Shown here: positions 13,743 to 43,225 of the stretch, piece by piece
Position numbering within the stretch: position 1 is the stretch's first letter
Layout: each line of letters starts with the position of its first letter
Assembly: GCF_004104075.1 (NCBI RefSeq)
Contig: NZ_QOVK01000009.1
Coordinates: 62,001 to 126,000 of the forward strand
Source of the DNA: Leeuwenhoekiella polynyae
GTDB taxonomy: Bacteria; Bacteroidota; Bacteroidia; Flavobacteriales; Flavobacteriaceae
DNA: 64,000 nucleotides
Reading direction: 5' to 3'
Made by a program: the position numbers and the translations under genes
Notes under the pieces: model-generated
Told to the model about the DNA's origin: nothing
The model's input: the letters and a program-made list of their open reading frames with translations, nothing else
Databases searched by the model: none

Positions 13743-13772
13743 AAAAAAGGGTTTAAGCTTTCGCTTAAACCC
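13743..13772 (-). terminator. intrinsic terminator after the tRNA remnant
   Basis: Perfect 10-bp inverted repeat GGGTTTAAGC (13749-13758) / GCTTAAACCC (13763-13772) with a 4-nt loop that reads GAAA on the minus strand (a GNRA tetraloop). It is followed on the minus strand by TTTTTT (13748-13743). It begins 3 bp after the CCA end of the tRNA remnant, as expected for the native terminator of that tRNA gene. Confidence 0.85.
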
Positions 13773-13775
13773 TTC

Positions 13776-13832
13776 TGGTACCCCGGGCGGGAATCGAACC
13801 CGCACTCGTAAGAACTGGGTTTTGAATCCAAG
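13776..13832 (-). pseudogene. 3' remnant of a tRNA-Leu(CAA) gene, probable attachment site
   Basis: Read on the minus strand the segment ends in a proper tRNA 3' half. The T arm GCGGG-TTCGATT-CCCGC occupies 13803-13787, the acceptor 3' strand CCGGGGT plus A follows, and the encoded CCA is at 13778-13776. Upstream is a seven-base loop TTCAAAA with anticodon CAA (13824-13822) and an 11-nt variable region consistent with leucine tRNA. No D arm or 5' acceptor strand (expected complement ACCCCGG) lies upstream; the sequence becomes AT-rich around 13833. With a terminator on one side and an integrase 155 bp away on the other, it is best read as the displaced 3' end left after site-specific integration. 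Confidence 0.75.
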
Positions 13833-13931
13833 TTATATATGGTCATCGCACATCAATATACACTACATACTATTGATTTACAGTTGTTTAATAAATTTTA
13901 ATTTTATTAAACATCATTAAAAAGCAAGATT

Positions 13932-13951
13932 TGTTGTACCTATGTTGTACC
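13932..13951 (+). repeat. pair of direct repeats TGTTGTACC upstream of the integrase
   Basis: TGTTGTACC occurs at 13932-13940 and again at 13943-13951, one 11-bp step apart, 36 bp before the integrase ATG. Direct repeats in this position can be arm-type recombinase sites or autoregulatory sites. That role is inferred only from position. Confidence 0.4.
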
Positions 13952-13986
13952 ATTTTAGTTTAACTTTATTGTAAATCACAGATGAT

Positions 13987-15201
13987 ATGACCTCAAACAC
14001 AAAAATAGTTCTTCGTAAGAAGCCCAACAAAAGTGGACTATACCCCATAGCAGTACGAATCACTAAAAACAGAAGATCAACTTATCATTATATTGGGCAC
14101 TATATTCAATTAAAAGATTGGGATGAAAAAAACTTAAAAGTCAAGAAGTCAAATCCTAACTTTTCACATTTAAACTACCTTATTTACACAAGGTTAAAGG
14201 AGGCTAATAAAAATTTGTTGCAGCTTCAGTCTAATAATCTAGATTTATCTGTAAATCAAATAAAAAAAGCAATTTACACCAACGTAAAGTCAAAGACATT
14301 TTACGAACTTGCTCAAGAATTCTTAAAGGAATTAGAGCTAAATAAAAAAATGGCTCAATTATCGGCAGACAGAGTGCGCGTAAATCACGTGATAAATTTT
14401 CACAAATCTAAACAGCTAACTTTTGAGGAAATAAATGAATTATTTTTAAGAAATTTTAAAGTTTATCTCAAGAGTAAATTGAGCCTCTCTGAAAGATCCA
14501 TAGTTAATAATCTAATTGTTATTAGAACAATCTACAACAGAGCAATAAAAATTGGCATTATAGACCGTAAACTTTATCCTTTTGGAGCTGATAAAATTAG
14601 AATAAAAATTCCAGAAGCTCAAAAAATTGGTTTATCGATTAATGAAATCAAGGCATTTGAAACTGCAAAGAATCTGACAAAAGAGGAAAAGCATGCTCAA
14701 AATGTCTGGCTTTTTAGCTTCTACTTTGCCGGAATTAGAATTGCAGATTTACTGAAGATTAGATGGAGTGACATTTTTGATGATAGACTTCACTATACAA
14801 TGAATAAAAATTCTAAGGTTTTATCTCTAAAATTGCCTAAAAAAGCAAATACTATCCTCAAATACTACAAACCATTTCAGAGGCAGATGGATGATTTTAT
14901 ATTCCCGGAGTTGAAACTGGCTGATTACAGTAGACCAGAAGATGTATATGCTAAGACCAAAACCGCAACCAAGAATATTAATTTTCATTTAAAACAAGTT
15001 GCTGAAAAATCTAAGATTAAAAAGAAAGTCACTATGCATATTGCACGTCATAGCTTTGGACACATATCTGAAGACAAAATTCCTATTCAAATGTTACAAA
15101 AGTTATATCGCCATTCTTCATTAACAACCACCATAAATTATCAATCTAATTTTATTCACAAGGATGCAGATGAGGCTCTTGAAAGTGTTGTTGACTTTTA
15201 A
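13987..15201 (+). CDS. tyrosine recombinase / integrase
   Basis: Site-specific recombinase expected to integrate and excise a mobile element at the adjacent tRNA-Leu site. The 404-residue protein has the usual Bacteroidota order: an arm-binding domain (about 1-85, with KLRKKPNKSGLYPIAVRITK-like strands), a SAM-like core-binding domain (about 100-195), and a catalytic domain. Catalytic residues visible are Arg251 (FAGIRIADLL), His351 and Arg354 (MHIARHSFG), His376 (YRHSSLTTT) and the nucleophile Tyr385 (INYQSNF). All are present, so the enzyme looks functional. Codon use is AT-rich. The stop lies only 5 bp from the convergent stop of the mannan-locus gene at 15207, leaving no room for a terminator. 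Confidence 0.93.
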   Translation: MTSNTKIVLRKKPNKSGLYPIAVRITKNRRSTYHYIGHYIQLKDWDEKNLKVKKSNPNFSHLNYLIYTRLKEANKNLLQLQSNNLDLSVNQIKKAIYTNVKSKTFYELAQEFLKELELNKKMAQLSADRVRVNHVINFHKSKQLTFEEINELFLRNFKVYLKSKLSLSERSIVNNLIVIRTIYNRAIKIGIIDRKLYPFGADKIRIKIPEAQKIGLSINEIKAFETAKNLTKEEKHAQNVWLFSFYFAGIRIADLLKIRWSDIFDDRLHYTMNKNSKVLSLKLPKKANTILKYYKPFQRQMDDFIFPELKLADYSRPEDVYAKTKTATKNINFHLKQVAEKSKIKKKVTMHIARHSFGHISEDKIPIQMLQKLYRHSSLTTTINYQSNFIHKDADEALESVVDF

Positions 15202-15206: not shown

Positions 15207-17165
15207 TTACTTCAAGTCAACAGAGAATAGTGAAATGAAAGATCCTCCCTCGGCGAATAGATTTATTTTACCGTTACTTACCTGGACCTTTTTAATTCTT
15301 TTGAAAGAATTATTTTCATCTGTTACATACACATTAAAAGCTGATATACTTGAAGGGATTCCAGTAACTTCAATTGGTCTTTTACCGCCTTTATTAACCA
15401 GATGTAAAACATATTTTCCATATTCTTTACATCCCAATGCGGCAGCCGTAACACTTTTATGATTTGATGTGACTGGTATACTTCTCAAACCAGAAGGTGT
15501 TTTGCCTAATTGTTTGAGATTGAAAAAACGTTGGGTTGGTTTAAGTTTATTGTCGTTTCCGTATATACCACCACCGGAAAGCACGGAATAGTCTGAAGTT
15601 AACTGCCATTGAAGAATAGTTAGAGGTTGAGCAAACTTCAAAATCTTAAGATAAATCCGTATTTCTTCAAGTGCATAGGAGGGTTCTTCAAAAATTTGGG
15701 GATATCTCCAGGCACCAGCATCGATGCTGCCTTCACCAACAAATAGAGGTTGGCCAACACGATTTGCGATATCATACCATTCTAAAAGATTTTTTTGAGA
15801 CCAACCTCGCCATGAATGAAATGATACTCCGCCAATATATGGTATTGATTCTGGGTTTAAAGATGCTCTAGTTGTGAAATCCCAACCATTTGCATCGGCT
15901 GTGTCACCAAGTAGTAACTTAGTATCTAATCCATTGCTTTTAAAGAGACTACCAAGTTCGCGTATCAATTGATCATGCTCTTCTGGGGTTTGCCTCACAT
16001 CGATTCCCAAGTCAGATTCATTAAATGAAAACAACACGGCTTCTACTCCATACTCCTCTTTTAAAAATACGAGGTAGGATATTATTGATCTATAAATTTC
16101 TTCTTTTTTAGATTGATCTAATTGATTGCCGCGGCTGCCGTCAAGATTAACTCCTTCAGCCCGTTCCCCAATAATTGTCCAATTAGGAGCAAACCAGGCT
16201 GCCAGGATTACCGGAATACCTTGTTCATTTAAACGCCTTGCCATTTCTAAAGAGGCTTTTACTTTGGGATGTAAGTTCCCTTTTTTAGCCTCAATCATCG
16301 GGTTTTTATCAAGATCAGGATGCCATTGTTTCCAAGGTAATTCTACCCGGCTCCAGGCGACACGCAAGTTATCTAAAGCATAATCTATAACCTGTGGGTC
16401 TGTATTAGGGTTTTGTAAACGGAAATTTCCACCTATCCCGTCAAAAGGATTTCCTTCTTGTTCCGGAAAGAGCTTTAAAGTTACAGGTGAGTTATCAGTT
16501 TCTCCGCTAACTTCTATATCAAATGTGTTTGAATAGGTCTTACCCGCTTCAAGATTACCCATAGCTATGGCAAAATTCAACTCAAAGTCAGGATTTAAAG
16601 AATCTTTACTCGTAGTAATAATCAATTCGGTTTGCTCTTGAGCTGTGACTTGAATGCCGCGTTTTTTGGTGAGCATATTCACTGCTTTTACTGGCGCCTT
16701 ATAAGATGCATTATCAAACGCAGCCCTTATCGCCTGAGCAGTTATAGATTCTGGATTGGTGATTTTAAAATTAGTGTCTTTTGTAAAATCTTTCGGCAAT
16801 TTAATTCTAAAATAAGCACCCTGAATCAGAGTATCTTTTGGAGCGCTAAAATTAATTTTAACACGAATGGAATTAGTAGTTAATGGTTTAAGCGTTTGAG
16901 TCCAACTGATGTTTTTCATTTCATAACTGAATGTCCTGGTCTCGTTATCTCTCTTAAAATCGGTTTTCTGTCCTTCTTTTCGTGTGACCCATTTATATCC
17001 TTGTTCATTTACTAGTACGAGGCTGGTATTAAAATCATGCAGGCCTTGCTCTGTGCGAATGCCGGTAAGGTTACCCCAGGTTTCAAATTCGGTCTGAGCA
17101 GTTATTTTTTGAAAAAAACTTGAAGCCACTAACAGTGTTAGCAATACCTTATTTTTTAATTTCAT
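15207..17165 (-). CDS. clan GH-A glycoside hydrolase, GH30-like, specificity unclear
   Basis: Secreted retaining beta-glycosidase of uncertain family. The 652-residue product has a signal peptide (ends near KITAQ), a beta-rich N-terminal region (about 25-225), then a barrel opened by FDGIGGNFRLQNP, which resembles the opening GFGGA pattern of GH30. Candidate acid/base is Glu383 (FSFNESDLG) and candidate nucleophile Glu478 (FVGEGSIDAG), the right spacing for clan GH-A. A C-terminal beta domain (about 550-652) is also GH30-like. The gene overlaps the GH26 stop by 17 bp, so it belongs to the GH9-GH26 operon and probably acts on mannan or glucomannan side products. No lipobox Cys is present, so it is likely periplasmic. 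Confidence 0.7.
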   Translation of the reverse strand: MKLKNKVLLTLLVASSFFQKITAQTEFETWGNLTGIRTEQGLHDFNTSLVLVNEQGYKWVTRKEGQKTDFKRDNETRTFSYEMKNISWTQTLKPLTTNSIRVKINFSAPKDTLIQGAYFRIKLPKDFTKDTNFKITNPESITAQAIRAAFDNASYKAPVKAVNMLTKKRGIQVTAQEQTELIITTSKDSLNPDFELNFAIAMGNLEAGKTYSNTFDIEVSGETDNSPVTLKLFPEQEGNPFDGIGGNFRLQNPNTDPQVIDYALDNLRVAWSRVELPWKQWHPDLDKNPMIEAKKGNLHPKVKASLEMARRLNEQGIPVILAAWFAPNWTIIGERAEGVNLDGSRGNQLDQSKKEEIYRSIISYLVFLKEEYGVEAVLFSFNESDLGIDVRQTPEEHDQLIRELGSLFKSNGLDTKLLLGDTADANGWDFTTRASLNPESIPYIGGVSFHSWRGWSQKNLLEWYDIANRVGQPLFVGEGSIDAGAWRYPQIFEEPSYALEEIRIYLKILKFAQPLTILQWQLTSDYSVLSGGGIYGNDNKLKPTQRFFNLKQLGKTPSGLRSIPVTSNHKSVTAAALGCKEYGKYVLHLVNKGGKRPIEVTGIPSSISAFNVYVTDENNSFKRIKKVQVSNGKINLFAEGGSFISLFSVDLK

Positions 17166-18126
17166 CTTTTGTTATCGTTTTTGAATAATTATAGATTTCT
17201 TTCACGCGATTGACCGTATTTGCAGTCTCGAGCCAATTAGACCACACCATAAACCAAGACCATTTAGGTTGTTTTTGAAGAATATTAGGTTTGGGTAATT
17301 CTCCCACTTCCCCGAGCGCTATAGGCTTACCGGCGGCAAGCTTTAAAAGTGCTTCATAATCGCGCTGCTCATAGTCATAATGATACACATCTGTAGCGAG
17401 TATATCTACATATTCAGCTCCCGGGTAAAAGTCCTCATAAGCAAAAGCCTCATCAAAGGGGATATCACGCGGCGCATTTGCATTCCATACCCAAATCAAG
17501 TTATTTAATTGATGGTACTCCGCTAAGCGGTTGTAGAGTATTTTCCAAAGCTTTTTATAGGCCTCCGGATTATTTCCCCACCAAAACCAAACCCCATTCA
17601 TCTCATGATAAGGCCTCCACAAGACCGGCACTCCTGATTCTTCCAATTTTTTAAGATATGAAGCCACATGATCAACTTGCTTGAGCCATCTCAAATGAAG
17701 AGCGGTATTGGGAGTAAGTACTTGTTCCCAATTTTCATCACTAAATTCATTCTGTACACTTTCACTCCAGCTATAGGGTGGTTTATCTGTAGGTCTTCCT
17801 ACATGCCACATCAACGTTACCAGTGCTCCCTCTTCATGTTTTTGAATAGCATTCTTCACAATTCGCTCTCCAGGATCCTTTTGACTATTCCAATAAAAAT
17901 CTGTTCCCCAGACCGCGGGATAGTTCCCAGTGATTTCATAAGCCAGTTTATAAAACTTTTCAGGCTCTTCGTTGTAACTGTGCTGACCAGATAAAATATT
18001 GTCACCTAAAGAAGCTATATAGGCTAATATCTGCTTTGCTTCCGGAGTTGCATACGCATTTACCGGTGTTTGAGCCAAACCTAGAGTAGAAAGCACTACA
18101 CTTATTAAACAGATTATTTTTCTCAT
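17149..18126 (-). CDS. GH26 endo-beta-1,4-mannanase
   Basis: Retaining endo-mannanase cutting the mannan backbone. The 325-residue product has a short signal peptide (MRKIICLISVVLSTLGLAQ) and a single catalytic barrel, about the minimum size for GH26. Acid/base Glu175 lies in WRPYHEMNGVWFWWG and the nucleophile Glu273 in ALGEVG. The partner motif SGQHSYNE (46-53) is also typical. No lipobox, so periplasmic rather than surface. It overlaps its operon neighbours at both ends: by 4 bp (ATGA) with GH9 and by 17 bp with the GH30-like gene, which indicates translational coupling. Confidence 0.92.
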   Translation of the reverse strand: MRKIICLISVVLSTLGLAQTPVNAYATPEAKQILAYIASLGDNILSGQHSYNEEPEKFYKLAYEITGNYPAVWGTDFYWNSQKDPGERIVKNAIQKHEEGALVTLMWHVGRPTDKPPYSWSESVQNEFSDENWEQVLTPNTALHLRWLKQVDHVASYLKKLEESGVPVLWRPYHEMNGVWFWWGNNPEAYKKLWKILYNRLAEYHQLNNLIWVWNANAPRDIPFDEAFAYEDFYPGAEYVDILATDVYHYDYEQRDYEALLKLAAGKPIALGEVGELPKPNILQKQPKWSWFMVWSNWLETANTVNRVKEIYNYSKTITKDEIKK

Positions 18127-20618
18127 TGCTGCTCATTTAAAAGCTGATCTGCCGCAAGAACCAGAAAGATATAATCTGTGGTTCCTCCTCCCAACACATA
18201 TTCGGTTTGCTGCCAAAGGAAAGGCCACTCCAGTAGTTCGGGAAAATCGGGTCTTATTAAAGCGGTTCCCGAACCAATACCTCCGGGTATAAACGAAAAC
18301 TCCCCTCGATTCATCCCATAAGCTTGAGTCAAAGATCGTGCACCTACCCCTGAGGCAAAAGAAGAGGTATTTACGCCGGGATGAGCACCTAACACAAAAT
18401 TAAGAGCGTTAAGCAAATAGTCTTTCGGAAAAATTTCGGGATAACTGGTGTGAAAATAATATTGTTTCATTCCAAAATTCTGAATGCCCCAGCCAGCACC
18501 CCAGATGTCTGGTTCATAAGGCATTCCATAAGGTGTTTTTTTACCTAAGTCTACTACTTGTTGATAATAAGCCTTTACAGCGGTGTTCAATCGCTTCTTG
18601 AAAGCAGGTTCTTGAATTAAGGGTAATGCCGGCCCTACTATCCACCCGGTGTTTTCTATATTAGAAATAATACCTTCTGTATTTTTTATCAGGAATTGTG
18701 CGTATTCTTTATTTTGAGTAGACCTTAACAGTTCTACTGCCAGTTCTAGTTTAGGGATAAAAGCTTCCTCACTGTGCGAGTCCCAAATGGCTTTTGCAAT
18801 AGACAGGCATTGCGCAGCCAGGTCTGGATTGTAGCTTTTTAAAACCCGTGCTGCTGCAGCCAAGGCAGCGGCAGTAGAAAGTTCTCTGGCAGGGTTTTCT
18901 TCTGTAAAAACCCAGCGGTCATCAGGTGCACCGGCTAAACCTATAGGGATATTCTGATCTGCTTGAGTGTTGGAAAAAATAATATTATCGCTATGGTTTA
19001 CAGGATCTCCCAATAAGGTATATTGCCTTTTAGTAGGAACTATTATTCCGCGGTAAAAACGACCCATAGCGGTATACCCTCCCACTATAGAAAGTACGCC
19101 ATGCTCAATTTGCTGTAAGATATCTGGTTTACCATCTGGCTGAAGGATTTCAACCACGCGTGTACTTTGATCAATACTTGTATTGTCGTAGTTTATGTTG
19201 AAATTTTCATAAATATGCGCCAACCCTTGTACTGTAGCTGCCTGAGATTCAACCCGAAGATCAAAATCTCCTGCATCATGCCAGCCGCCCTTATTTAATT
19301 CAGGGACGTGTTCTCCTGATTTATATTCTGTAAGTGTTGTAGACCCCTGTATATACCCGTCAAAATGATTGTAGTCTATAGGAGCCATACGCGCATCGTC
19401 CATATGACAGAGTCCGTGCCAGACTTTATAACGATCGTTCACGCGCATATGGCACATTTGAACCGGTAAAAAGTATTCTAGTGTGGGTTGCCAGACGTCT
19501 CTTTGATATACCTCTTGGGTTATCTGAAAAGCTTCGGTAGTATAGTCACCATATTGAACCACATACATACCGGGTTTTGTAATCGCACTAAAGTCTAGTT
19601 GATAATAGGTATACCGGAGAAAATTCCCCCAAAGTTCTGGTTTCTTAGAAACCACTTCTGTATATCCGCCTTCGTTATTGATGCGTAGCAGTTTTGCATC
19701 CTGTTTTTTGGTGTCATTGGGATCAGTTTCTATTACGGCTATTTTTTCTTGTGTCGGATGGTAGCCCACCTGAGAAATTTGTACTACCGGGTCGTATAAA
19801 AAATCTTTCAGCGTATTAGGCGTGATTAGCCATTCTATAGCATTTTTTGTTTTTCCGGCGGGAACAAGCGATCTAACAATAAACCAACCATTGCTGTGAC
19901 TGGCACGCCCATCTAATAATTGCAGTTCCGCCTGAGAATTTAAATTTTCAATATGAATAGTTTGTGCCGGAGTACCCGGAGCAATTACCAGATGTTTTCC
20001 TTGAGCTATGGACTGCAGGCGATATTCTCCTTCTTCAGCATAGGTGCCGGGGCCATTAGCTTGCCTATTAAAAAGACCAAACTTTTCATCCATGTAATAG
20101 GATTTTCCAAAAAGAATTCCGGGGAAAAATTCAATATTCATTCCTACTTTTCCTATCCATTCTTCCGGTAAAGGTTTATCAAGATCTACCGTTATTTTAA
20201 AAGATTTCCCTTGCGGATTGACCTTCAGTTTATATTCCATCTCCAGACCTGGGTAAATAATAGGGTTAAATCCTTTGCGGTCTTTCGAAGCGTCGGGGTA
20301 GCTCATGTGAACGCTTATTTCCTGTTTTTGTCTGTCTACCTGTCGCTCTCCTACTTTGGGAACCGGTTGCCATTGACCGGGAGTTGATTCTAGTCTAAGA
20401 TCACCATTCGTGGCGACGCGTATGCCGTTCTGAATGACACCTACTCCGCCCTGATGGCTTTCCGGATAAAAATCGTGCGCCAGCATCACATTAGCACCTT
20501 GTCGCTCAAGATATTCCTGTTTGTTAATTCTAAAAACAGTAGAAGAGTCAGCCAATTGTTGCGCACTAACTTGAGCTAATCCGAAAAAAAATAAGAAAAA
20601 AATAAAAATACGTGTCAT
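18123..20618 (-). CDS. GH9 family glycoside hydrolase with N-terminal cellulase Ig-like domain
   Basis: Inverting beta-glucanase-type enzyme, probably cutting the glucosyl-containing parts of glucomannan. The 831-residue product has a signal peptide (MTRIFIFFLFFFGLAQVSAQ), a long N-terminal region, an Ig-like domain that starts near VQISQVGYHPTQEKIAVIE, and the (alpha/alpha)6 catalytic domain. GGWHDAGDFD carries the paired Asp448 and Asp451; LNFVLGAHPGVNTSSFASG and the final TEYVLGGGTTDYI with Glu806 as likely proton donor follow. The Asn-Glu-Val context common in GH9 is replaced by Thr-Glu-Tyr, so activity on cellulose is doubtful. First gene of a three-gene operon, with the AGE-type epimerase divergent. 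Confidence 0.85.
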   Translation of the reverse strand: MTRIFIFFLFFFGLAQVSAQQLADSSTVFRINKQEYLERQGANVMLAHDFYPESHQGGVGVIQNGIRVATNGDLRLESTPGQWQPVPKVGERQVDRQKQEISVHMSYPDASKDRKGFNPIIYPGLEMEYKLKVNPQGKSFKITVDLDKPLPEEWIGKVGMNIEFFPGILFGKSYYMDEKFGLFNRQANGPGTYAEEGEYRLQSIAQGKHLVIAPGTPAQTIHIENLNSQAELQLLDGRASHSNGWFIVRSLVPAGKTKNAIEWLITPNTLKDFLYDPVVQISQVGYHPTQEKIAVIETDPNDTKKQDAKLLRINNEGGYTEVVSKKPELWGNFLRYTYYQLDFSAITKPGMYVVQYGDYTTEAFQITQEVYQRDVWQPTLEYFLPVQMCHMRVNDRYKVWHGLCHMDDARMAPIDYNHFDGYIQGSTTLTEYKSGEHVPELNKGGWHDAGDFDLRVESQAATVQGLAHIYENFNINYDNTSIDQSTRVVEILQPDGKPDILQQIEHGVLSIVGGYTAMGRFYRGIIVPTKRQYTLLGDPVNHSDNIIFSNTQADQNIPIGLAGAPDDRWVFTEENPARELSTAAALAAAARVLKSYNPDLAAQCLSIAKAIWDSHSEEAFIPKLELAVELLRSTQNKEYAQFLIKNTEGIISNIENTGWIVGPALPLIQEPAFKKRLNTAVKAYYQQVVDLGKKTPYGMPYEPDIWGAGWGIQNFGMKQYYFHTSYPEIFPKDYLLNALNFVLGAHPGVNTSSFASGVGARSLTQAYGMNRGEFSFIPGGIGSGTALIRPDFPELLEWPFLWQQTEYVLGGGTTDYIFLVLAADQLLNEQQ

Positions 20619-20755
20619 AAATCATCGAAAATTTAAAAATAGGTCTCTAATGTATGCCTTACTTAATACTTTTTTATCGATTTCCTATAGGATATTTTCA
20701 GAACAGTTTGCGCTAGTGCACATTGCTTTATATTTAAACTGAAATTAATTATGTT
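20619..20755. promoter_or_regulatory. divergent promoter region, GH9 operon and exported epimerase
   Basis: This 137-bp AT-rich gap must serve both the GH9-GH26-GH30-like operon (minus) and the epimerase (plus). TATATTTA at 20729-20736 is close to, but not, the Bacteroidota TAnnTTTG box. TTTTTTATCGATTT near 20670 loosely resembles the TTTTATCATTT motif of the other mannan-locus promoters. Neither is strong. Confidence 0.35.
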
Positions 20756-22093
20756 ATGAAAATACTACACTTTTTTAGTCTCTTTTGTCTAACTACTTTT
20801 ACCGCTTTTGCTCAGGAAAAAGTAGCTAACGAGGCGATCATTTCTCAAATGAAGGTTGATGCCAAAGAAAACCTACTCGATAAATGGTACCCGCTTGTGA
20901 TAGACAAGGAAGACGGGGGATATTACAGCGAGATTACCTATGATTTTCAAATAGGGGAAAAACACGATAAGATGATCGTAACGCAAGCAAGGCATATCTG
21001 GACCAATTCGGTCGCAGCTGAATTTTTTCCTGATAAGCAGAACAACCTAAATTATGCGGCACACGGATTCGAATTTTTGAGAGATGTCGTGTGGGATGCT
21101 AAATATGGTGGGTTTCATAACCTGGTTACCAAAGAAGGAAAACCTATCGCTAAAAAAGGAGAAGAAAAAACCGCTTATGGAAACTCCTTTGCTATTTATG
21201 GCCTTGCGGCATACTACAGGGTTTCTGGGAATAAAGAAGCGCTTGATCTTGCAAAAAAAACCTTTTACTGGCTTGAAGAGCACAGTCATGACCCAAAAAA
21301 TAAAGGCTATTTTCAATCTTTAAACTTAGATGGTTCTCCAATTTTAAGAGACTCAAGTTTTGACTCTACTTCAGATGTGGGTTATAAAGATCAAAACAGC
21401 TCTATACATTTGCTGGAAGCTTTTACAGAATTATATAAAGTATGGCCAGACAAACTAGTTGCCGAAAGACTGAAAGAACTCTTATTGCTTATACGAGATA
21501 CTATCGTGAGTGAAAGAAATTATATGAATCTCTTCTTTGAGGCAGACTGGACTCCTGTATCTTTTAATGAGGAAACAAAAAAGATTATAAAAAAACATTA
21601 TTATCTAGATCATGTTTCGTTTGGTCACGATGTAGAAACCGCGTACCTAATGCTAGAAGCTTCTGAAATACTGGAGCGTAAGGATATCGAAAAAACGTTA
21701 TTAAAAGGAAAAATGATGGTAGACCATGCTCTTGAAAATGGTTGGGACCCCGAATTTGGAGGCTTTTATGACGGTGGGTATTATTTTGGGGAAGAGAAGT
21801 CGTTAACCATCGTGAATTCAGATAAAAACTGGTGGTCACAAGCTGAAGGATTAAATACACTCCTTATTATGCAACACTATTTTCCAAATGACAGCCACCA
21901 CTACGGGATTTACTTCAATCAATTATGGGAGTATGTGAACACATTTTTCATGGATGATCGCTTTGGAGGTTGGTATGAATGGGGCCAAGACAATAAACCT
22001 GAAACGAAAGACGATCTAAAAGGCCATATTTGGAAAGCTAATTATCACAACTTTAGAGCACTTATCAACTGCTTAAAAAACTTAGAAAAATAA
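20756..22093 (+). CDS. AGE-family sugar 2-epimerase with signal peptide
   Basis: Member of the N-acylglucosamine 2-epimerase/cellobiose 2-epimerase superfamily, probably interconverting the reducing-end glucose and mannose of beta-linked disaccharides. The 445-residue product has a clear signal peptide (MKILHFFSLFCLTTFTAFAQ) and no lipobox, so it should be periplasmic. That is unusual because most characterized disaccharide epimerases are cytosolic. The likely catalytic His are present in SSIHLLEAFTEL, SFGHDVETAYLM and WKANYHNFRAL, and the family pattern DKEDGGYYSEI and DPEFGGFYDGG is intact. It has its own transcription unit, ending at a bidirectional terminator. A second, cytosolic paralogue is at 35791-36984. 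Substrate is inferred from context. Confidence 0.82.
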   Translation: MKILHFFSLFCLTTFTAFAQEKVANEAIISQMKVDAKENLLDKWYPLVIDKEDGGYYSEITYDFQIGEKHDKMIVTQARHIWTNSVAAEFFPDKQNNLNYAAHGFEFLRDVVWDAKYGGFHNLVTKEGKPIAKKGEEKTAYGNSFAIYGLAAYYRVSGNKEALDLAKKTFYWLEEHSHDPKNKGYFQSLNLDGSPILRDSSFDSTSDVGYKDQNSSIHLLEAFTELYKVWPDKLVAERLKELLLLIRDTIVSERNYMNLFFEADWTPVSFNEETKKIIKKHYYLDHVSFGHDVETAYLMLEASEILERKDIEKTLLKGKMMVDHALENGWDPEFGGFYDGGYYFGEEKSLTIVNSDKNWWSQAEGLNTLLIMQHYFPNDSHHYGIYFNQLWEYVNTFFMDDRFGGWYEWGQDNKPETKDDLKGHIWKANYHNFRALINCLKNLEK

Positions 22094-22110
22094 GCAATAA
22101 AAGTATTTTC

Positions 22111-22154
22111 AAAAAAACAGGGCAAATACATTGATGTATTTACCCTGTTTTTTT
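22111..22154. terminator. bidirectional intrinsic terminator between epimerase and GH27
   Basis: Long hairpin with arms AAAAAACAGGG-C-AAATACA (22112-22130) and TGTATTT-A-CCCTGTTTTTT (22135-22153), a single C/A mismatch and a 4-nt loop. The A-run on one side and T-run on the other let it act for the plus-strand epimerase (stop 22093) and the minus-strand GH27 gene (stop 22169). Confidence 0.85.
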
Positions 22155-22168
22155 GAAATATGTTTACT

Positions 22169-23374
22169 CTATTTTTTAGTCAACTGCAGTGTGATCACAT
22201 CGTGTGGTGCAACTACTGCATTAAAGGAACTCTTTGTTGTTTTTAGGTCTTTCTGCGCCCATACATCTTTTAAAGAAAAAAGGGTATTTTTAAAATCAAC
22301 AGTATATTCAAAATCAGGATCTTTTATTTGATGATCTTCCCAGTTGAAATTTACTTGATGTTCACGATCTGCCCGGTTTAAGAACGTTACAGCCCAGTCT
22401 CCGTTTTTAAGAGGCTTAAACCACGTTTCAAGTCCTTCTTTACTGCTGTATTTGAAGCCTTGGATTCCTAAAGAATCCTGATTGATAGCGATCATATCTT
22501 TATTAGTAAGGATAGCTACTGTTTCTGCGCTCATATCTGCTAAATCATTTCCTGCTATTAAAGGAGCCGAGAGCATACACCACATAGCAAAATGAGCGCG
22601 ATCTTCAGCAACAGACATCCCATTTCCCACTTCCATCATATCAGGATCGTTCCAGTGCCCGGGACCGGCATATTTTCTAAGGCCATCCTGCATATCTAAA
22701 ATTTTAAGCACGCCCCAAGATGACCAGTCGCCGTGATCTTCTTCACAATCCCAGCAAGCATAAATATCCCCAGTTGTTCTCCACATATGGCCAATATCTT
22801 GGGCCCATTCCCAAGGCTTATTATCACCCCATTCGCAAATTGCAAACAAAATTGGGCGACCAGCGCTATAAAGAGCATTTCTCATTGTTGTGTAAGAAGC
22901 TTCGGCATTTTGCTTTCCTGTATTACACCAATCGTACTTTAAATAATCGACGCCCCAGGATGCATATTTAATGGCATCTTGATATTCGTGACCACGGCTT
23001 CCAGGCTCACCGCCACAGGTCTCAGTACCTGCGTCTGAGTATATCCCAAACTTAAGGCCTTTGCTATGTATATAGTCTGCCAGAGCTTTCATACCGGAAG
23101 GAAATTTTTCCTTATCTGCATGAATAAAACCATCAGCATCCCGCTCACCGTGCCAGCAGTCATCTATTACAATATACTCATAGCCAGCATCCTTCATACC
23201 GCTGGAGACCATGGCATCAGCAGCATTTCTGATAACTTGTTCATTGATATTACAGGCAAATTTATTCCAGCTATTCCACCCCATAGGTGGCGTTTCGGCA
23301 ATATTATCAAACTTCTGAGCATAGCTTTTAAAATTCAACATCGTGATGAAAAAAATAAAAAAAAGGTTTTTCAT
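22169..23374 (-). CDS. GH27 alpha-galactosidase
   Basis: Retaining exo-alpha-galactosidase that removes alpha-1,6-galactose branches from galactomannan and galactoglucomannan, opening the backbone to mannanases. The 401-residue product has a signal peptide (MKNLFFIFFITMLNFKSYAQ), no lipobox, and textbook GH27 motifs: TPPMGWNSWNKF, IDDCW, YLKYDWCN with nucleophile Asp148, and WRTTGDI with acid/base Asp203. Length fits a catalytic barrel plus short C-terminal beta domain. It lies after the mannan SusCDE operon, separated by a strong stem-loop at 23395-23425, so it may receive reduced read-through transcription or use its own promoter. Confidence 0.95.
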   Translation of the reverse strand: MKNLFFIFFITMLNFKSYAQKFDNIAETPPMGWNSWNKFACNINEQVIRNAADAMVSSGMKDAGYEYIVIDDCWHGERDADGFIHADKEKFPSGMKALADYIHSKGLKFGIYSDAGTETCGGEPGSRGHEYQDAIKYASWGVDYLKYDWCNTGKQNAEASYTTMRNALYSAGRPILFAICEWGDNKPWEWAQDIGHMWRTTGDIYACWDCEEDHGDWSSWGVLKILDMQDGLRKYAGPGHWNDPDMMEVGNGMSVAEDRAHFAMWCMLSAPLIAGNDLADMSAETVAILTNKDMIAINQDSLGIQGFKYSSKEGLETWFKPLKNGDWAVTFLNRADREHQVNFNWEDHQIKDPDFEYTVDFKNTLFSLKDVWAQKDLKTTKSSFNAVVAPHDVITLQLTKK

Positions 23375-23394
23375 AGTTTAAAAATTAAAATAAT

Positions 23395-23425
23395 ATTCCC
23401 TGCTTAAATTGTTTAAACAGGGAAT
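23395..23425 (-). terminator. stem-loop after the mannan SusC-SusD-binding-protein genes
   Basis: Inverted repeat with 14-bp arms (23395-23408 and 23412-23425; ATTCCCTGCTTAAA / TTTAAACAGGGAAT, one G-U pair) and a 3-nt loop. It is followed on the minus strand by an AT-rich ATTATTTTAATTTTT. It sits between the binding-protein stop (23460) and the GH27 ATG (23374), suggesting termination or attenuation. Confidence 0.7.
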
Positions 23426-23459
23426 AATTTGAACAAAATTAGTGGATAAAAGTCTAAAT

Positions 23460-24518
23460 CTAAATCAATCCCAGATCATCTATATAAATTACTGACGGGG
23501 CAGCACCACTAAACTCCTGAATGACAATCTCGTTAAGTGTAGCTGGAGAGCCCAATTGTGACAATGGTATTGTAAAATCGTTCCACTCTCCCTGATTGAT
23601 AGTTATTACTGCACCTGCGTCATAATTTCCGTTTAATACGAGTTTTAGATTGTTGATTCCTTCTCCTCCATATATTGATACTTTAACGGCTTGTTTGTCG
23701 GCAAGATCAATGGTGGCACCACCATTGCCAATTTGAAAACCTGAGTAACCCCCCTCATAAGTTCTCTTGATTGAGAAATCGCCACGTTTTACGCGCTCAG
23801 TACTTTCAAAATCTTCTGAACCAGACCAACCCCCAATCCACCAGCTTTGGGCTAATGCATCATCATAAACCACAAATTTAAATCCGAAGGATTGCGTACT
23901 CTGGGATATGCCCCCTGCTGTTTCCACAAACAAAAAGGCCTGTACAATTCCTTCAGGTACTGCAACCTGTATTTCCGTGGTGGTAGATGAAATTATTTCA
24001 GCCTCAACATCTCCAAATCGCACGGATACAAGACCTTCAAAAATCTCACCTTGAATAGTAACAATATCCCCGGCACTTGCTGCCAATGGCGTAAATGAAG
24101 TAATTCTAGGAGCTGGTTGCTCGATCATAAAAAAAGTTGTCGCAACACCTTCTGATGTAACTACACGCAACTCATCGCTAGCGTCAAAGTAGGGTGCATC
24201 TTCAGGGATACTTGTAATAATAACATTATTTGTAACCAATGTCGGGTTAAAATAGGCTTCCGTGTCATTAAAATATACCTCTTGAGTCGTGGCTAAGTTT
24301 TCTCCATAAATGGTATAGGAATTTTGACGAAGTCCTACTGTAGTGGTAGAGTCTCTTGCTGTAAGGGCCACACTTGTTATACTTGGTGGGCCGGTTGCTT
24401 CTACACCACCCGTATCATCGGGTTGACAAGAGGTTAACTCCAGGCTTAACATTAGGGCTAGTAATAGAATACCGCCGCTACTGATTTGCTGTTTAAAAAA
24501 TTTAATTTTCTTCATCAT
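23460..24518 (-). CDS. IPT/TIG-domain surface glycan-binding lipoprotein (SusE position, mannan PUL)
   Basis: Probable surface mannan-binding protein of the third position in a SusC-SusD operon. The first ATG at 24518 is used; the frame extends one codon to a GTG. The lipoprotein signal has lipobox ELTSC with Cys31. Two IPT/TIG Ig-like modules follow (about 45-125 and 130-215; ITSFTPLAASAGDIVTIQGEIF and SVRFGDVEAEIISSTTTEIQVAVP). The C-terminal domain (about 225-352) looks like a carbohydrate-binding jelly roll with WWIGGWSGSEDF and a final IDDLGLI strand. It is not homologous to the SusE proteins of the other two PULs. Ligand is inferred from the locus. Confidence 0.75.
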   Translation of the reverse strand: MMKKIKFFKQQISSGGILLLALMLSLELTSCQPDDTGGVEATGPPSITSVALTARDSTTTVGLRQNSYTIYGENLATTQEVYFNDTEAYFNPTLVTNNVIITSIPEDAPYFDASDELRVVTSEGVATTFFMIEQPAPRITSFTPLAASAGDIVTIQGEIFEGLVSVRFGDVEAEIISSTTTEIQVAVPEGIVQAFLFVETAGGISQSTQSFGFKFVVYDDALAQSWWIGGWSGSEDFESTERVKRGDFSIKRTYEGGYSGFQIGNGGATIDLADKQAVKVSIYGGEGINNLKLVLNGNYDAGAVITINQGEWNDFTIPLSQLGSPATLNEIVIQEFSGAAPSVIYIDDLGLI

Positions 24519-24527
24519 CACTGTTTT

Positions 24528-26078
24528 TTAATTAAACTCATAAGGAACTGGTTCTTCAAGTAGTCTTGGATTTAAAGCCACGTCTGTTGCAGGATAGGGC
24601 AACAAGAAATCGTCTACTTCTGGAGTATACATCTCTGTAAATATTTCAGGTGGTTCTTCATTACTATAAGTTCCTCTTTCCTGGTTGCTTATAATATTAA
24701 TGGCTGTTTGACGGTCGATTCGTCCCAAATCAAACCAATAATCCCCCTCTATAGCAAATTCAATTCTACGTTCTTGTAAAATATCATCAAGTGTAATTGA
24801 AGGCAGACTGCCCAGACCTGCCCGTAAACGCACACTATTAAAAGATTCAAGCGCCTGAGCATCACTTGTTGAAGCAGCACCTGCCAAAATAGCTTCGGCA
24901 TTAATTAATAATACATCGGCATACCGCATTATATAGGTATTGTTAGATGCGGCCTGCATTGCAGAATTACCATTATTATCTGCTGGTGTACCAACGACAT
25001 ATTTTTTAATCCCTGCTTTTGTGTTCTGAGCATTTATATCATCTGGTACTGTGTAGCCCCCATCAGCTGCCCTGATGTTGGGATAGAAATCTCCGGCAAG
25101 CATTATAGTTGCCTTTCTACGTTCATCACCATCTTCATAAGCTTCCTGCAAATCAATTGTTGGCCCTATCACACCATACCCATCACCAGTACCAGTTATG
25201 GCGCTGCTTATAGCAAAAGAAGCCTGCATTGCATTACCAACACCATAACCCTGAGATGTCCACTGCATAGCTGCAATAGATTCTTCATTATTGTTGAACT
25301 CTGTTAAAAATAGATTATTGTAATCATCAAGTAATTGAAATTCTTCGCTCGAAATCACTTCCTGACTTAGTTGTCGTGCTAGATCGTATTCCTCTTGATA
25401 AAGGTGAACTTTTGCCTTTAATGCTTTAGCAGAACCACTTGAGACGTGGGCATTTGCTAAATAATTACCACCGCGCACCTTTGGATAGCAATTATCAATT
25501 GCAAACTGAAGATCACGCTCTATTAATTCATAGATATCTTCTATTCGGTTTTTAGAGATCTGAGGATCGTAGACATAATCTAGATTATTTTCAATTATGG
25601 GCACTGATCCCCAAATCCTAACCAAATAAAAATAAGCAACCGCTCTCATAAAATGTGCTTCGCCTATTGTATTGTTTACTGCTTCCTGAGAAACCGATGG
25701 GCTTACTCTACTTTCAGTAAAATTTATTATTGCATTTGATTGAGCAATCACACCCCATAAAGAACCCCAACCATCGGCTAACACAGTGTTATCGCCTGTT
25801 ATTGAGAAGTTGAAAAAGTTTACTACGTCCCCAGAGAAAGTACGTGCGTTACCACCGCTCAACTCTGTAATTGACCAAAATGCCTTAGTATTGAAATTAA
25901 ACCATACTGCTCCATAAAGGCTATTTGTATTAGCTACTAGTTCTTCTTCACTAGAATAAAAATTATCTAATGCAATACCGTCTTCTGGTGGTCTTTCTAA
26001 AAATTCATCGTCACAAGATACCAGCGAAAAAAACACCAAAAACAGTAAAAACAGTTTGTTATACTTTATATATTTCAT
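24528..26078 (-). CDS. SusD/RagB family glycan-binding lipoprotein (mannan PUL)
   Basis: SusD-like partner of the SusC transporter 13 bp upstream, expected to bind manno-oligosaccharides at the cell surface. The 516-residue product has a lipoprotein signal (SLVSCDDEF, Cys22), the early motif EELVANTNSLYGAVW, the core helix GEAHFMRAVAYFYLVRIWGSVPI and the C-terminal pattern LQERRIEFAIEGDYWFDLGR. The last residues differ from the NTGY-type ending of the other two SusD proteins here, so this is a separate lineage of SusD. Confidence 0.92.
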   Translation of the reverse strand: MKYIKYNKLFLLFLVFFSLVSCDDEFLERPPEDGIALDNFYSSEEELVANTNSLYGAVWFNFNTKAFWSITELSGGNARTFSGDVVNFFNFSITGDNTVLADGWGSLWGVIAQSNAIINFTESRVSPSVSQEAVNNTIGEAHFMRAVAYFYLVRIWGSVPIIENNLDYVYDPQISKNRIEDIYELIERDLQFAIDNCYPKVRGGNYLANAHVSSGSAKALKAKVHLYQEEYDLARQLSQEVISSEEFQLLDDYNNLFLTEFNNNEESIAAMQWTSQGYGVGNAMQASFAISSAITGTGDGYGVIGPTIDLQEAYEDGDERRKATIMLAGDFYPNIRAADGGYTVPDDINAQNTKAGIKKYVVGTPADNNGNSAMQAASNNTYIMRYADVLLINAEAILAGAASTSDAQALESFNSVRLRAGLGSLPSITLDDILQERRIEFAIEGDYWFDLGRIDRQTAINIISNQERGTYSNEEPPEIFTEMYTPEVDDFLLPYPATDVALNPRLLEEPVPYEFN

Positions 26079-26091
26079 CGTAATTTATTTT

Positions 26092-29000
26092 TTAAAATTC
26101 AACATTTAAACCTAGAGTAAATGTCCTGGGTATGGGGTATCTCCCTCGATCAACACCCATTTGCAGTGCATCACCATTAAATGATCCTATCTCCGGGTCA
26201 TATCCAGAATAATTTGTAAAGGTGTAAAGGTTTTGTATAGTACCATAAACCTTAAGATTTGAGAGGTAAAATCTTTGACAAAAGGTTTGAGGGAGATTAT
26301 AGCCCAGACTAACATTTTGTATTCTCAAGTAAGACCCATCTTCAACATACCGATCTGAAATAAATAAATTTTGATTATCATCTCCCCTTCTTGGTCTTGG
26401 AAAAGCAGCATCAATATTATCTGGGGTATAGTAATCCTGCGCTATGTTTAATTGATTGGTGTATAATCTTGATAGACCAACCGTTTCCTTTCGTGTCAAA
26501 TTTAATAGATCATTACCATAAGATCCTTGAAGGAAAATACTAAGATCAAAATTTTTATATTTAAAGTTATTGGTAAATCCAAATGTGAAATCTGGGTGAG
26601 GGTTGCCAATATAGGTTCTGTCTTTTTCATCAATAACACCATCCTCATTTACATCAACATATTGAATATCACCGAGGCTGTTATCACCTAGTTCCTCAGA
26701 AAAAGGGATACCAAATTGAACAGGCGCTCCATCAATATCTTCTTGGGTTCTAAATATTCCGGCAACTTTATAACCCCAATATTTCCCTAAAGGCTCACCT
26801 TCAACTGTTCTAGTAATTGGAGAAGATAAAAACCCAGTTGTAACAGAACGTAAAACTTCCAGGCTTTCGTTATAAAGTTCCGTTACTTCATTTCTGTAAT
26901 GAGATATATTGAAATTGGTTGACCATGAGAAATCTTTAGTCTTTAAAGTTGAATAACCCATAGAAACATCAATACCCTTATTATTCATTTCACCCAGATT
27001 GACAAAAGGAGCAGAAATTCCTCCTAAATAATTATCAGGCCCAGTTAGGAAGACTGGCAGAGGTAACTGGTATAAAAAGTCTTTTGAAACCTTATTATAC
27101 ACTTCGATTGTAGCATTGAATCGGTTATCCAAAAGTGTAAACTCTATACCTAAATTGGTTTGTCTAGTTTCTTCCCATTTTAAATCGGGATTAGGAATAT
27201 TATTAACTAAATATCCAAGTCCTATGCCCGTAGGAGTATTGTTTAAGCTAGAACCATAAAGATAGTTTGCAATCCCCTGATTACCTACAACACCATACCC
27301 TGCTTTCAATCTAATATTATCAACCGTCTCGTTAAAGCTTTCCATCCATGGTTCATTTGACAATTTCCAAGATGTCGCAAATGATGGAAAATAACCCCAT
27401 TGCTTACCTCCTTGAGGATCAAATTTAGAGGAGCCATCTGCCCTCAAGGTTGCTGTTAAACTGTATTTATTTTTGAATGAATAGTTTGCTCTTCCGAAGT
27501 ATGAATTTAAAGCAGTGCTGCCTTGATAGGCATCGTAGCTTACTATTGAATTTGCATTATTAAGGGTCTGAATGTCATTATTGACAAAGCCCTGACCCTG
27601 AGCCTGAATCCCTTCCCAGAAGGACTCCTGTGCTTCTTGACCTAACAAAACATTTAGGTTATGGTCTCCAAAGTTTTTCGAAAAATTAAAATAATTTTTA
27701 ATAATCCAAAAATGACTTTTTTCCCTTTTTTCAAATAACGTTGCATTTTCATTGATAAATCGCCCCCATTCGTAAGTTGGAGTGAATTGAGTGTTTGTGC
27801 CAAATGTTAAATTACCTCCTATTTCATTCCTAAATGTTAGACCATCCATAAGGGTAAACTCAGAATAGAAATTACCCAGTACATTATAGGTGAGTAAGGA
27901 ATTACTTCTTTCCAGTGCTAAAGCTACGGGATTTATACTGCCTTCAATTGCCCCTGGTTCATCTGGCGGTCCAGCAAAAGAACCGTCTGGATTGCGCACC
28001 GCCACATCTGGAGCCTGAAGTAACCCCAAACTGACAATACCATTACGATTACTATTTAAAGTGATATCTTCACTTGTTCTACTTGCAGTAAGGTTAGCAC
28101 CTACCTTCAGCCAATCTTTTAAATTGCCATCAATATTCGCCCGGACAGTCAATCTATCAAAGCCAGAGCCTAAGACGGTTCCTTCCTGATCTAAGTAACT
28201 ACCAGAAATAAGGTAGTTTACTTTCTCATATCCTTGTGAATAAGAAATTTGGTGACTCTTTAAAATAGCTTGTTGAAATACCTCATCCTGCCAATCAGTG
28301 CCATCTCCCAGGTTCTCAATCGTTGTAAATTCAATTCGTGGTTCAGTCCCATACTCTACAGCCAATGCATTTTGTAGTCCGGCGTAAGTAGGAAGATCCA
28401 TTACATCTAGCAATTTTTGGGGTTCTTGAAGAGCATAATAGGTATTGTATTTCAAAGAACCTGCTTTATTCCGACTGCCTGTCTTAGTTTTTATAATTAC
28501 AACACCATTCGCACCTCGTGAACCGTAAATTGCAGTAGCTGAAGCATCCTTAAGTATATCAACAGACTCAATATCACTAGGGTTTAATCCGGCCAATGGA
28601 CTTGTGCCTGTCTGTCCGTTCCCCCCAAAGTCTGCTGCTGCTGTCCGCCCACTTGTACTGGTATTACGTGAATCACCAGATATAGGCACACCATCAATTA
28701 CATACAATGGTTCGTTATTCCCAGTAATAGAAGTTATACCTCTTATCCTAACCGAAACCGCGCTTCCAGGCTTTCCTGAGTTTTGACTAATGGTAACCCC
28801 AGAGGCTCGGCCTTGCATCAATTGGTCTATACTTACCTGCGGAATATTTTCGATTTCGTCAGATTCAATACTAGATACTGATCCGTTAACGTCTTGTCGC
28901 TGTTGCGTTCCATAACCAATTAGGACAACTTCATCCAAACTTTCAGAATCTTCAGACAGCGCAACATCCACTCTTTGTCTCTGATCAACAGCAACTTCCT

Positions 29001-29241
29001 TAGTTTCAAATCCAATGAAACTAAATACAAGAATGCCATCCTGAGGCACATTGAGCTGAAAGTTTCCGTCAAAATCTGTGGCTGTACCGTTACTAGTATT
29101 TTTTTGTATGACATTTACACCCAGCAGTGGATTTCCGTTTTGATCTGTTACTGTTCCTTCTACTACATTTTGTTGAGCCAAGCTTAACTGAGTTAATAGA
29201 CAGAATAGCGCAAAAGTGATCATCTTACTTATGCGTTTCAT
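26092..29241 (-). CDS. SusC/RagA TonB-dependent transporter (mannan PUL)
   Basis: Outer-membrane importer for manno-oligosaccharides. Start chosen at ATG 29241 because AAAGGCGG lies just upstream and because MKRISKMITFALFCLLTQLSLAQ is a standard signal peptide; ATGs at 29274 and 29379 would add a basic, hydrophilic leader. The 1049-residue product has the regulatory-like domain (VEGTVTDQNGNPLLGVNVIQK), the linker DEVVLIGYGTQQRQDVNGSV, plug motifs VRIRGITSITGNNEPLYVIDG and DASATAIYGSRGANGVVIIK, and a barrel ending in GLNVEF. It heads the SusC-SusD-binding-protein operon. Confidence 0.93.
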   Translation of the reverse strand: MKRISKMITFALFCLLTQLSLAQQNVVEGTVTDQNGNPLLGVNVIQKNTSNGTATDFDGNFQLNVPQDGILVFSFIGFETKEVAVDQRQRVDVALSEDSESLDEVVLIGYGTQQRQDVNGSVSSIESDEIENIPQVSIDQLMQGRASGVTISQNSGKPGSAVSVRIRGITSITGNNEPLYVIDGVPISGDSRNTSTSGRTAAADFGGNGQTGTSPLAGLNPSDIESVDILKDASATAIYGSRGANGVVIIKTKTGSRNKAGSLKYNTYYALQEPQKLLDVMDLPTYAGLQNALAVEYGTEPRIEFTTIENLGDGTDWQDEVFQQAILKSHQISYSQGYEKVNYLISGSYLDQEGTVLGSGFDRLTVRANIDGNLKDWLKVGANLTASRTSEDITLNSNRNGIVSLGLLQAPDVAVRNPDGSFAGPPDEPGAIEGSINPVALALERSNSLLTYNVLGNFYSEFTLMDGLTFRNEIGGNLTFGTNTQFTPTYEWGRFINENATLFEKREKSHFWIIKNYFNFSKNFGDHNLNVLLGQEAQESFWEGIQAQGQGFVNNDIQTLNNANSIVSYDAYQGSTALNSYFGRANYSFKNKYSLTATLRADGSSKFDPQGGKQWGYFPSFATSWKLSNEPWMESFNETVDNIRLKAGYGVVGNQGIANYLYGSSLNNTPTGIGLGYLVNNIPNPDLKWEETRQTNLGIEFTLLDNRFNATIEVYNKVSKDFLYQLPLPVFLTGPDNYLGGISAPFVNLGEMNNKGIDVSMGYSTLKTKDFSWSTNFNISHYRNEVTELYNESLEVLRSVTTGFLSSPITRTVEGEPLGKYWGYKVAGIFRTQEDIDGAPVQFGIPFSEELGDNSLGDIQYVDVNEDGVIDEKDRTYIGNPHPDFTFGFTNNFKYKNFDLSIFLQGSYGNDLLNLTRKETVGLSRLYTNQLNIAQDYYTPDNIDAAFPRPRRGDDNQNLFISDRYVEDGSYLRIQNVSLGYNLPQTFCQRFYLSNLKVYGTIQNLYTFTNYSGYDPEIGSFNGDALQMGVDRGRYPIPRTFTLGLNVEF

Positions 29242-29555
29242 ACCGCCTTTACGTTTGATTATTTTTTTTAGCATTATTGAGAAAATTGTTGAATTGATAC
29301 TAATATTATGAGTTTGATAAAATACCGGTTTATTTATTAGAGCTTCGATAAATATTGACCCATAATATTTCATTATCAAAATTATGAGGATGGTTAAGCT
29401 TTTGTTAATATTATTTTATCATTTAATAATGATATTTTTTCGAATATCTAAAAGGCGTAAGATTAAGTGATCCAGAATATTAAGATAAGGTAGGATATCA
29501 CTGCATTTTTTGAGAATACCAGTATTTAAAAATTTGATAATATAAATTCTAAACC
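29242..29555. promoter_or_regulatory. upstream region of the mannan susC
   Basis: AT-rich gap of 314 bp between susC (29241) and the 3' end of the GH5_2 gene (29556). A TAATTTTG box, matching the Bacteroidota -7 consensus TAnnTTTG, is at 29384-29377 on the minus strand. TATTTTATCA is at 29324-29315 on the minus strand. The 17-bp repeat shared with the GH26 promoter is at 29408-29424. No -33 TTG lies at normal spacing from the -7 box, so the promoter call is tentative. Confidence 0.45.
29408..29424 (+). repeat. 17-bp repeat, copy 1, with adjoining inverted repeat
   Basis: ATATTATTTTATCATTT here is identical to 31574-31590. In this copy the 3' part is also one arm of a perfect 7-bp inverted repeat, TATCATT-TAAT-AATGATA (29417-29434). 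It may be the operator of a locus regulator such as the AraC protein at 30536-31408; that link is inferred. Confidence 0.5.
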
Positions 29556-31408: not shown

Positions 31409-31613
31409 TAAAAGTCCTTTTAGAAATTATTTTATTATGAAATGACAAAATTCTATTAATCCAATAATTAGATTGACGGTAATTTTGGAAATCATTAACA
31501 TTTTGAAGAAATCTTAGCAATAATACAATCTAGGTAATTTTAAAGATAATTTATGGATGACAAAACAAAATCTATATTATTTTATCATTTGCACTAAAAT
31601 TTATTAAAAACAA
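31409..31613. promoter_or_regulatory. divergent promoter region, AraC gene and seven-gene mannan operon
   Basis: A 205-bp AT-rich gap. TAATTTTG (31480-31487, plus strand) matches the Bacteroidota -7 consensus and could drive the operon, but no TTG lies at the usual -33 distance. The second copy of the 17-bp repeat is at 31574-31590, 23 bp before the GH26 ATG. No coding sequence seen. Confidence 0.45.
31574..31590 (+). repeat. 17-bp repeat, copy 2
   Basis: Exact second copy of the 17-bp sequence at 29408-29424. It lies immediately upstream of the first gene of the mannan operon. In this copy the inverted-repeat right arm is absent: the sequence continues GCAC instead of AATAATG. The core TATTTTATCA also occurs at 29324-29315 on the minus strand upstream of susC. 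Confidence 0.5.
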
Positions 31614-34592: not shown

Positions 34593-34595
34593 TTT

Positions 34596-36984: not shown

Positions 36985-36988
36985 AATT

Positions 36989-43221: not shown

Positions 43222-43225
43222 TGTT

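Follow-up and report, generated by a model that had tools for sequence, protein, structure and literature searches.

The window analyzed here is a 64-kb stretch comprising positions 62001-126000 of contig C9 in the Leeuwenhoekiella polynyae genome (G000; 47 contigs, 4.79 Mb). Its minus strand, read from 13832 down to 13776, contains the anticodon stem-loop (CAA), variable arm, T arm, acceptor 3' strand, and CCA of a tRNA-Leu, and the D arm and 5' strand are absent from the sequence to the right of 13832, as claimed by the original prediction for this locus. The remnant scored 98 against a local library of tRNA 3' halves (locus L237), compared to a top score of 25 among 54 shuffled upstream stretches in a like test. 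The prediction was to fail if a structure-based scan found a complete tRNA here, and ARAGORN identified no tRNA gene in the window. The terminator expected on one side of the remnant is visible as a hairpin with a T run, and the complete integrase expected on the other side is a 404-codon open reading frame beginning 155 bp from the remnant (Table 1). Its product contains Arm-DNA-bind_5, Phage_int_SAM_5, and Phage_integrase domains above the Pfam cut-offs, and the R, HxxR, H, and Y recognized by eye in the translation are presumably those of the tyrosine recombinases. Among the matches listed, the integrase showed 22.6-24.6% identity to phage proteins (8 of 38) and 23.2-26.0% to plasmid proteins (8 of 110).

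Table 1. Features of the element end and its cargo, in window coordinates.
Feature	Position	Strand	Basis
Host-side terminator of the original tRNA-Leu gene	13743..13775	-	Hairpin and T run read from sequence
3' remnant of host tRNA-Leu(CAA), CCA encoded	13776..13832	-	Sequence reading, ARAGORN, score against tRNA 3' halves
28-bp stretch identical at both element ends (anticodon stem-loop and variable arm)	13803..13830		End comparison
18-bp end motif, two TTGTACC half-sites 11 bp apart; putative arm-type integrase site	13934..13951	+	Sequence comparison
Tyrosine recombinase (integrase), intact	13987..15201	+	ORF of 404 aa, Pfam domains, translation
Cargo 1, mannan-type utilization locus	15207..44326		Pfam
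Cargo 2, galactan-type utilization locus: GH2, GH53, SusC/D/E, hybrid two-component regulator	44473..58354	-	Pfam
Further cargo: weak GH5-like protein, C39-peptidase ABC exporter	58433..64000	+	Pfam

Far end, shared core, and the probable junction between contigs

The original prediction had the element extending to the right of 13776, with a rebuilt tRNA-Leu at its far end that was not found in the window. The element does extend to that side, and the remnant region has its second match in the window genome at an intact tRNA-Leu(CAA) outside the window, at 27981-28061 of contig C13 and in the predicted orientation. The motif TTGTACCTATGTTGTACC, located between the remnant and the integrase in the window, is also present just inside the C13 tRNA. 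Eight copies were identified in the window genome at up to two mismatches, seven of them exact, including one on C9 and one on C13. The sequence identity anticipated between the intact tRNA and the remnant extends only over a 28-bp core, beyond which the T stem and 3' end differ between the C9 and C13 tRNA regions; the C13 copy has no encoded CCA, and the hairpin at its terminator position differs in sequence from the one in the window.

When the host left flank was joined to C13 at the core, a complete 83-nt tRNA-Leu(CAA) with CCA resulted; the circular-side join gave no tRNA. The crossover falls within the 28-bp core, i.e., the anticodon stem-loop region. This is the position characteristic of anticodon-loop tRNA islands, the remnants at related loci also ending at the anticodon loop, and is not the tRNA-Leu 3' end used by NBU1-like elements, the core (13803-13830) being composed of anticodon stem-loop and variable arm. 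From the predicted model of integration into the 3' end of a tRNA gene, the rebuilt gene and displaced 3' end are retained but the crossover is moved from the very 3' end to the anticodon stem-loop. Likewise, the host 3' half and terminator stay on the left as claimed, with the refinement that the element supplies a 3' half and terminator of its own at the far end. In the proposed mechanism, the integrase would bind the half-site pair present on each arm of the element in its circular form and recombine the element-borne tRNA-Leu 3' half with that of the host tRNA-Leu(CAA) gene, the exchange taking place in the anticodon stem-loop region. This would displace the host 3' half and terminator to the left end (13743-13832), and at the C13 end the host 5' half would be completed by the element-borne 3' half and terminator.

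Contig C9 breaks off within the 5' part of an IS21 transposase gene, and the same gene resumes 14-15 bp further on at the start of C13, as measured against the copies on C7 and C8; neither of these gene parts was found at any other contig end. The ends of contigs C11, C28, and C39 stop approximately 190 bp earlier in the same IS end and are identical to the C8 copy, with C9 differing from them at three positions, and the C13 part represents a separate variant (97.0% identity to C7 and 96.5% to C8). The three variant positions of C9 and the 96.5% identity of C13 to C8 favor C9 over C11, C28, and C39 as the partner of C13, such that C9-C13 is the favored pairing, through a putatively broken IS21 copy. 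If joined, the bracket would measure approximately 102 kb, with about 73.9 kb on C9 and 28.0 kb on C13.

Other element ends in the window genome are mispaired. Contig C2 carries a tRNA-Met left end (270770) and a tRNA-Leu(TAG) right end (302732) that are 32 kb apart, and the corresponding tRNA-Met right end and tRNA-Leu(TAG) left end are located at C34:9916 and C15:63537-63639, respectively (loci L009, L010, and L013-L015 cover the mispaired ends). Such an arrangement could have arisen by an inversion involving two elements or by misassembly. The mixed ends on C2 indicate that elements recombine or that the assembly errs, and the C9/C13 pair could accordingly be a mosaic.

Cargo and conjugation genes

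The mannan-type locus codes for three GH26 enzymes, a GH5, a GH9, an alpha-galactosidase, a GH130, a GH3, two 2-epimerase-family proteins, and two esterases, along with SusC/D, an SSF transporter, an AraC regulator, and two ORFs without a Pfam match. Mannan and, for the second locus, galactan are the probable substrates as judged from the enzyme families. The bracket continues past the window to the end of C9 and includes another SusC/D pair. This cargo suggests how a single acquisition may open two polysaccharide diets to a marine flavobacterium.

Encoded on C13 are IS21 genes, S24-peptidase/ImpB-type and SRAP proteins, RteC, a TraG-type ATPase, TraM, DUF4138 (which we take to be TraN), a HipA-like protein, a coupling protein, a MobB relaxase, BfmA, RadC, DUF6876, and SSB, followed by the right end. 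RteC, the TraG-type ATPase, TraM, DUF4138, coupling protein, MobB relaxase, and BfmA were above their cut-offs; matches to TrbC, TraK, and VirB5 were below theirs. The hallmarks of an ICE are represented by the intact site-specific integrase (13987-15201), by two att ends with a rebuilt target gene, located on two contigs, and, across the favored junction on C13, by genes for a relaxase, a coupling protein, and type IV secretion. It is very probable that the window covers the integrase end of an approximately 102-kb ICE that bears mannan and galactan loci and has its conjugation genes on C13. The C13 side would supply the relaxase, coupling protein, and tra genes, and the element may still be able to excise and transfer. 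A prophage was considered and thought unlikely, as no phage structural family was identified by Pfam among 80 selected ORFs of at least 90 aa, a few of which were outside the bracket.

The tRNA-Leu(CAA) site in Leeuwenhoekiella

A motif-bearing element end at tRNA-Leu(CAA) was identified in six of 13 genus genomes (G000, G001, G005, G006, G007, and G012, where G007 is a contaminated and G012 an incomplete assembly). The remaining seven (G002, G003, G004, G008, G009, G010, and G011) have the tRNA without an adjoining motif and provide the empty sites that the original prediction had proposed for comparison; the G001 assembly has both states. The case that would have refuted the original prediction, a remnant with neither integrase nor insertion, was not seen: all seven remnants identified in the genus were accompanied by motif and integrase. 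In the complete genome G011, a homologue of the left-flank gene of the window is 11.3 kb from an intact tRNA-Leu(CAA) that is followed by prs and lacks the motif, and prs is the right flank of the tRNA on C13 too. A 9.7-kb contig of G001 represents the unoccupied allele of the site occupied on its C4, with flanks of 3519 and 3475 bp showing 0 mismatches, six and four gap openings, respectively, and a 53-bp overlap. Spontaneous excision or a mixed culture would give both alleles; no separate attP contig was found in G001, where the search matched only the known end.

The site is used by several relatives with different cargo. Leeuwenhoekiella nanhaiensis (G005) matches window positions 13778-63557 (49.9 kb) at 93.3%, compared to 83% over 1.7 kb and 74% over 3.5 kb for its host genes beside the site; the high cargo identity is at most an indirect sign of conjugative transfer. 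The G001 cargo matches the window over 14 kb at 86.5% and 14.6 kb at 73.9%. A GH130-epimerase stretch is present in five of the 13 genomes, inside the element in G000, G001, and G005, far from the tRNA in G008, and on another contig in G012. From 13 C13 proteins searched for, none was found in the G005 element and four (BfmA, RadC, DUF6876, and SSB) in that of G001, so these relatives may not be self-transmissible. In Leeuwenhoekiella marinoflava (G006), a left end at tRNA-Leu(CAA) is followed by homologues of most C13 proteins in the same order and by a right end, and both contig ends carry parts of the relaxase gene.

These relatives bear on whether C9 and C13 belong to one element. The integrase and cargo island of C9 could be fused via IS21 to the conjugation half of a different element on C13, with only the outer ends acting as one. 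Such a composite would account for the IS21 separating the cargo and tra halves and is in keeping with the mismatched ends on C2, C15, and C34 and with the G005 and G001 elements having cargo but not tra genes in common with it. It is nevertheless unlikely, since the single motif on C9 and the single motif on C13 at up to two mismatches define one bracket and the G006 left end at the same tRNA leads through tra homologues in the same order to a right end. Still less probable is a decayed island in which integrase and remnant are left over, the right end is lost, and the C13 tRNA end derives from another element. The separation of C9 and C13 into two contigs, the endings of C11, C28, and C39 in the same IS end, and odd content between the G005 element ends would fit this reading, but the integrase is intact, the window genome has one left and one right end at tRNA-Leu(CAA), the C9 and C13 IS21 gene parts fit, and the host flanks agree with G011. 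A single ICE spanning C9 and C13 is preferred.

Two further observations concern the site. A starch locus between the element ends in G005 (C1 ~378200-390250; L212 and L213) is 77.5% identical to window positions 1-12027, which stand outside the element in the window genome, a point against the ICE reading. The terminator and tRNA 3' end carried by the element at the G001 right end (L216) match the host-side terminator and remnant at window 13739-13830 with 97.8% identity, suggesting an older exchange of ends at this site.

The end motif in Bacteroidota and comparison with known systems

A scan of genome contigs yielded at least 127 exact copies of TTGTACCTATGTTGTACC in at least 119 loci, which we take to be from Bacteroidota except for L117 (Parvularcula). 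Among the matches listed, 119 of the 127 sampled copies adjoin an integrase, tRNA, or tRNA remnant. A similar integrase ORF starts 4-390 bp downstream of 55 copies (33-37 bp in 21 of them), and another 55 are followed by an antisense tRNA with its 3' end 41-66 bp away; in the controls, tRNAs were present in 3/124 upstream and 3/127 random stretches. Nine of the remaining 17 copies reach a tRNA or remnant score of at least 50, in a rescoring that had no shuffled control (L083 scoring exactly 50). The last eight include two cut by the locus end (L060 and L106), four that are unexplained (L034, L044, L059, and L132), and two in similar coding sequence that look like chance occurrences (L032 and L112).

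Sequence was sufficient to examine 54 integrase ends for a tRNA 3' remnant. Forty-nine carry one, of the Leu, Met, Phe, or Asn type and terminating at the anticodon loop, compared to none of 54 shuffled controls, and the other five score below 50 (L035, 46; L095, 38; L075, L089, and L109, about 20). The remnant-to-motif distance is 104-117 bp in 43 of the 49 and 194 bp in six, the latter belonging to second copies where the motif is doubled at a spacing of 85 bp. On the tRNA side, the motif is 85-111 bp from the anticodon, with many distances of 85-90 or 104-111 bp and some between. Two copies exactly 85 bp apart occur, among the matches listed, in eight of the 119 sampled loci (L029, L030, L061, L063, L078, L086, L097, and L125), all of which are left ends with a tRNA-Leu(TAG) remnant from several genera.

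A second sample was selected by integrase rather than motif: 149 family genomes were searched, 38 matched, and 30 places were examined, including that of the window. A tRNA remnant was identified in 30/30, and the motif at no more than one mismatch in 23/30, compared to 0/30 shuffled stretches with three or fewer mismatches. These counts, together with the nearly constant distances, leave practically no probability for a sequence that is tRNA-like by chance, or an ordinary tRNA pseudogene, with an unrelated integrase next to it; this reading was rejected on the shuffled and random-stretch controls. The motif is clearly different at seven integrase loci, and both half-sites change together in six of these, their two 7-mers being identical (e.g., TTTGACC-TATG-TTTGACC); the L256 motif has two mismatches and unequal halves. 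The six changed sites were chosen as the stretches most like the known motif, from which they differ at 4-6 positions compared to 6-8 for shuffled stretches, and it is therefore the equality of the halves, rather than the match, that supports them. In L240, the remnant is present with a gap of 64, off the usual distance.

Partners of the changed motifs were identified 57.6 kb away adjoining an intact tRNA-Leu(CAA) in G166, on another contig adjoining an intact tRNA-Met and with one half altered in G137, and in G173 followed by a tRNA-Met 3' half and an apparent left end of a tandem element, with no intact tRNA present. At this G173 locus (C23:77207; L270), the right-end motif and tRNA-Met 3' half run into left-end-like sequence, as in apparent tandem elements. 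No partner of the G173 C127 motif was present among the matches listed; the partner search took in neither G096 nor G019, and G066 only in part. The 18-bp motif is a probable arm-type integrase site.

A further arrangement, a complete tRNA followed by a second 5' half starting at the anticodon loop, was identified at 11 of 53 right ends (two more being too short), namely 5/10 for Leu-CAA, 6/8 for Leu-TAG, and 0/35 for others, and also in L. marinoflava (G006) and G007. Here the host gene would be split and the element would supply a whole tRNA. On C13, the intact tRNA-Leu(CAA) is followed on its right by a short gene (L002 1622-1947), presumably of the GIY-YIG family, and then by a second, decayed 5' half bearing two palindromic inserts. 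The same arrangement (tRNA, GIY-YIG-like stretch, and 5' remnant) is present in decayed form in the element-free complete genome G011. As G011 has a 5' remnant without element or motif, the one on C13 appears older and was set aside as a sign of a whole-tRNA element; the element of the window is better explained as the 3'-half type.

On balance, we lean toward an end code shared by the tRNA-targeting elements of Bacteroidota, in which an X7-(T/C)ATG-X7 pair would be located inward of the integrase end by about 109 bp and, at the far end, 85-111 bp from the anticodon. The 7-mers would covary with the integrase, whose arm domain would set them, such that the motif could be predicted from the integrase and would in turn locate both element ends, and some leucine-tRNA elements would carry a whole replacement tRNA as a counterpart of tRNA-dependent lysogeny. 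If the motif holds up, it offers a simple way to draw the borders of Bacteroidota elements, even across contig breaks, and the joint change of the half-sites opens the recognition of arm sites by these integrases to direct testing.

The element is of an already known kind, and its end signature was not found in the literature searched. No paper was found for the exact motif TTGTACCTATGTTGTACC, the one paper matching the half-site together with integrase and Bacteroid concerns, by its title, diabetic foot ulcers, and no description of the signature was found in the titles and opening lines of abstracts on utilization loci, mobile elements, and tRNA integration in this phylum. A 2002 study by Williams reportedly treats tRNA sublocations. 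The element resembles CTnDOT/NBU-type and Bac_Flav conjugative transposons in its RteC, TraG-type ATPase, TraM, DUF4138, MobB, and BfmA homologues above cut-offs, with its likeness in TraK, VirB5, and TrbC being below them. NBU1 targets the 3' end of tRNA-Leu, in contrast to the anticodon loop used here (PMC10865867). Islander islands with anticodon-centered attP share the regenerated tRNA, the displaced fragment at the ends, and the crossover at the anticodon loop; no arm motif is mentioned in the available part of that source (PMC4383910). Mycobacteriophages with tRNA-dependent lysogeny bring a whole same-isotype tRNA after splitting the host gene, similar to the 11 of 53 right ends described above, but are phages of other bacteria, and the window element reads better as an ordinary 3'-half type (PMC10865867).

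A 2012 survey of marine genomic islands associated tRNAs with at least 27% of islands and included an island in L. blandensis, with anticodons not mentioned in its accessible portion (PMC3478194). Marine beta-mannan loci, including that of Leeuwenhoekiella sp. MAR_2009_132, likewise combine GH26 mannanases with GH130, and the terms "horizontal," "mobile," "integrase," and "conjugative" have 0 occurrences in the main text as available (PMC9860051). In the gut, 47 polysaccharide utilization loci have been described on mobile elements, which similarly carry SusC/D loci as cargo; the window element differs in its marine host and tRNA-targeting integrase (PMC6907783). ICEEaII of Elizabethkingia is an ICE of a related family that inserts mainly in the same tRNA-Leu-CAA gene and differs in cargo (PMC8694125).
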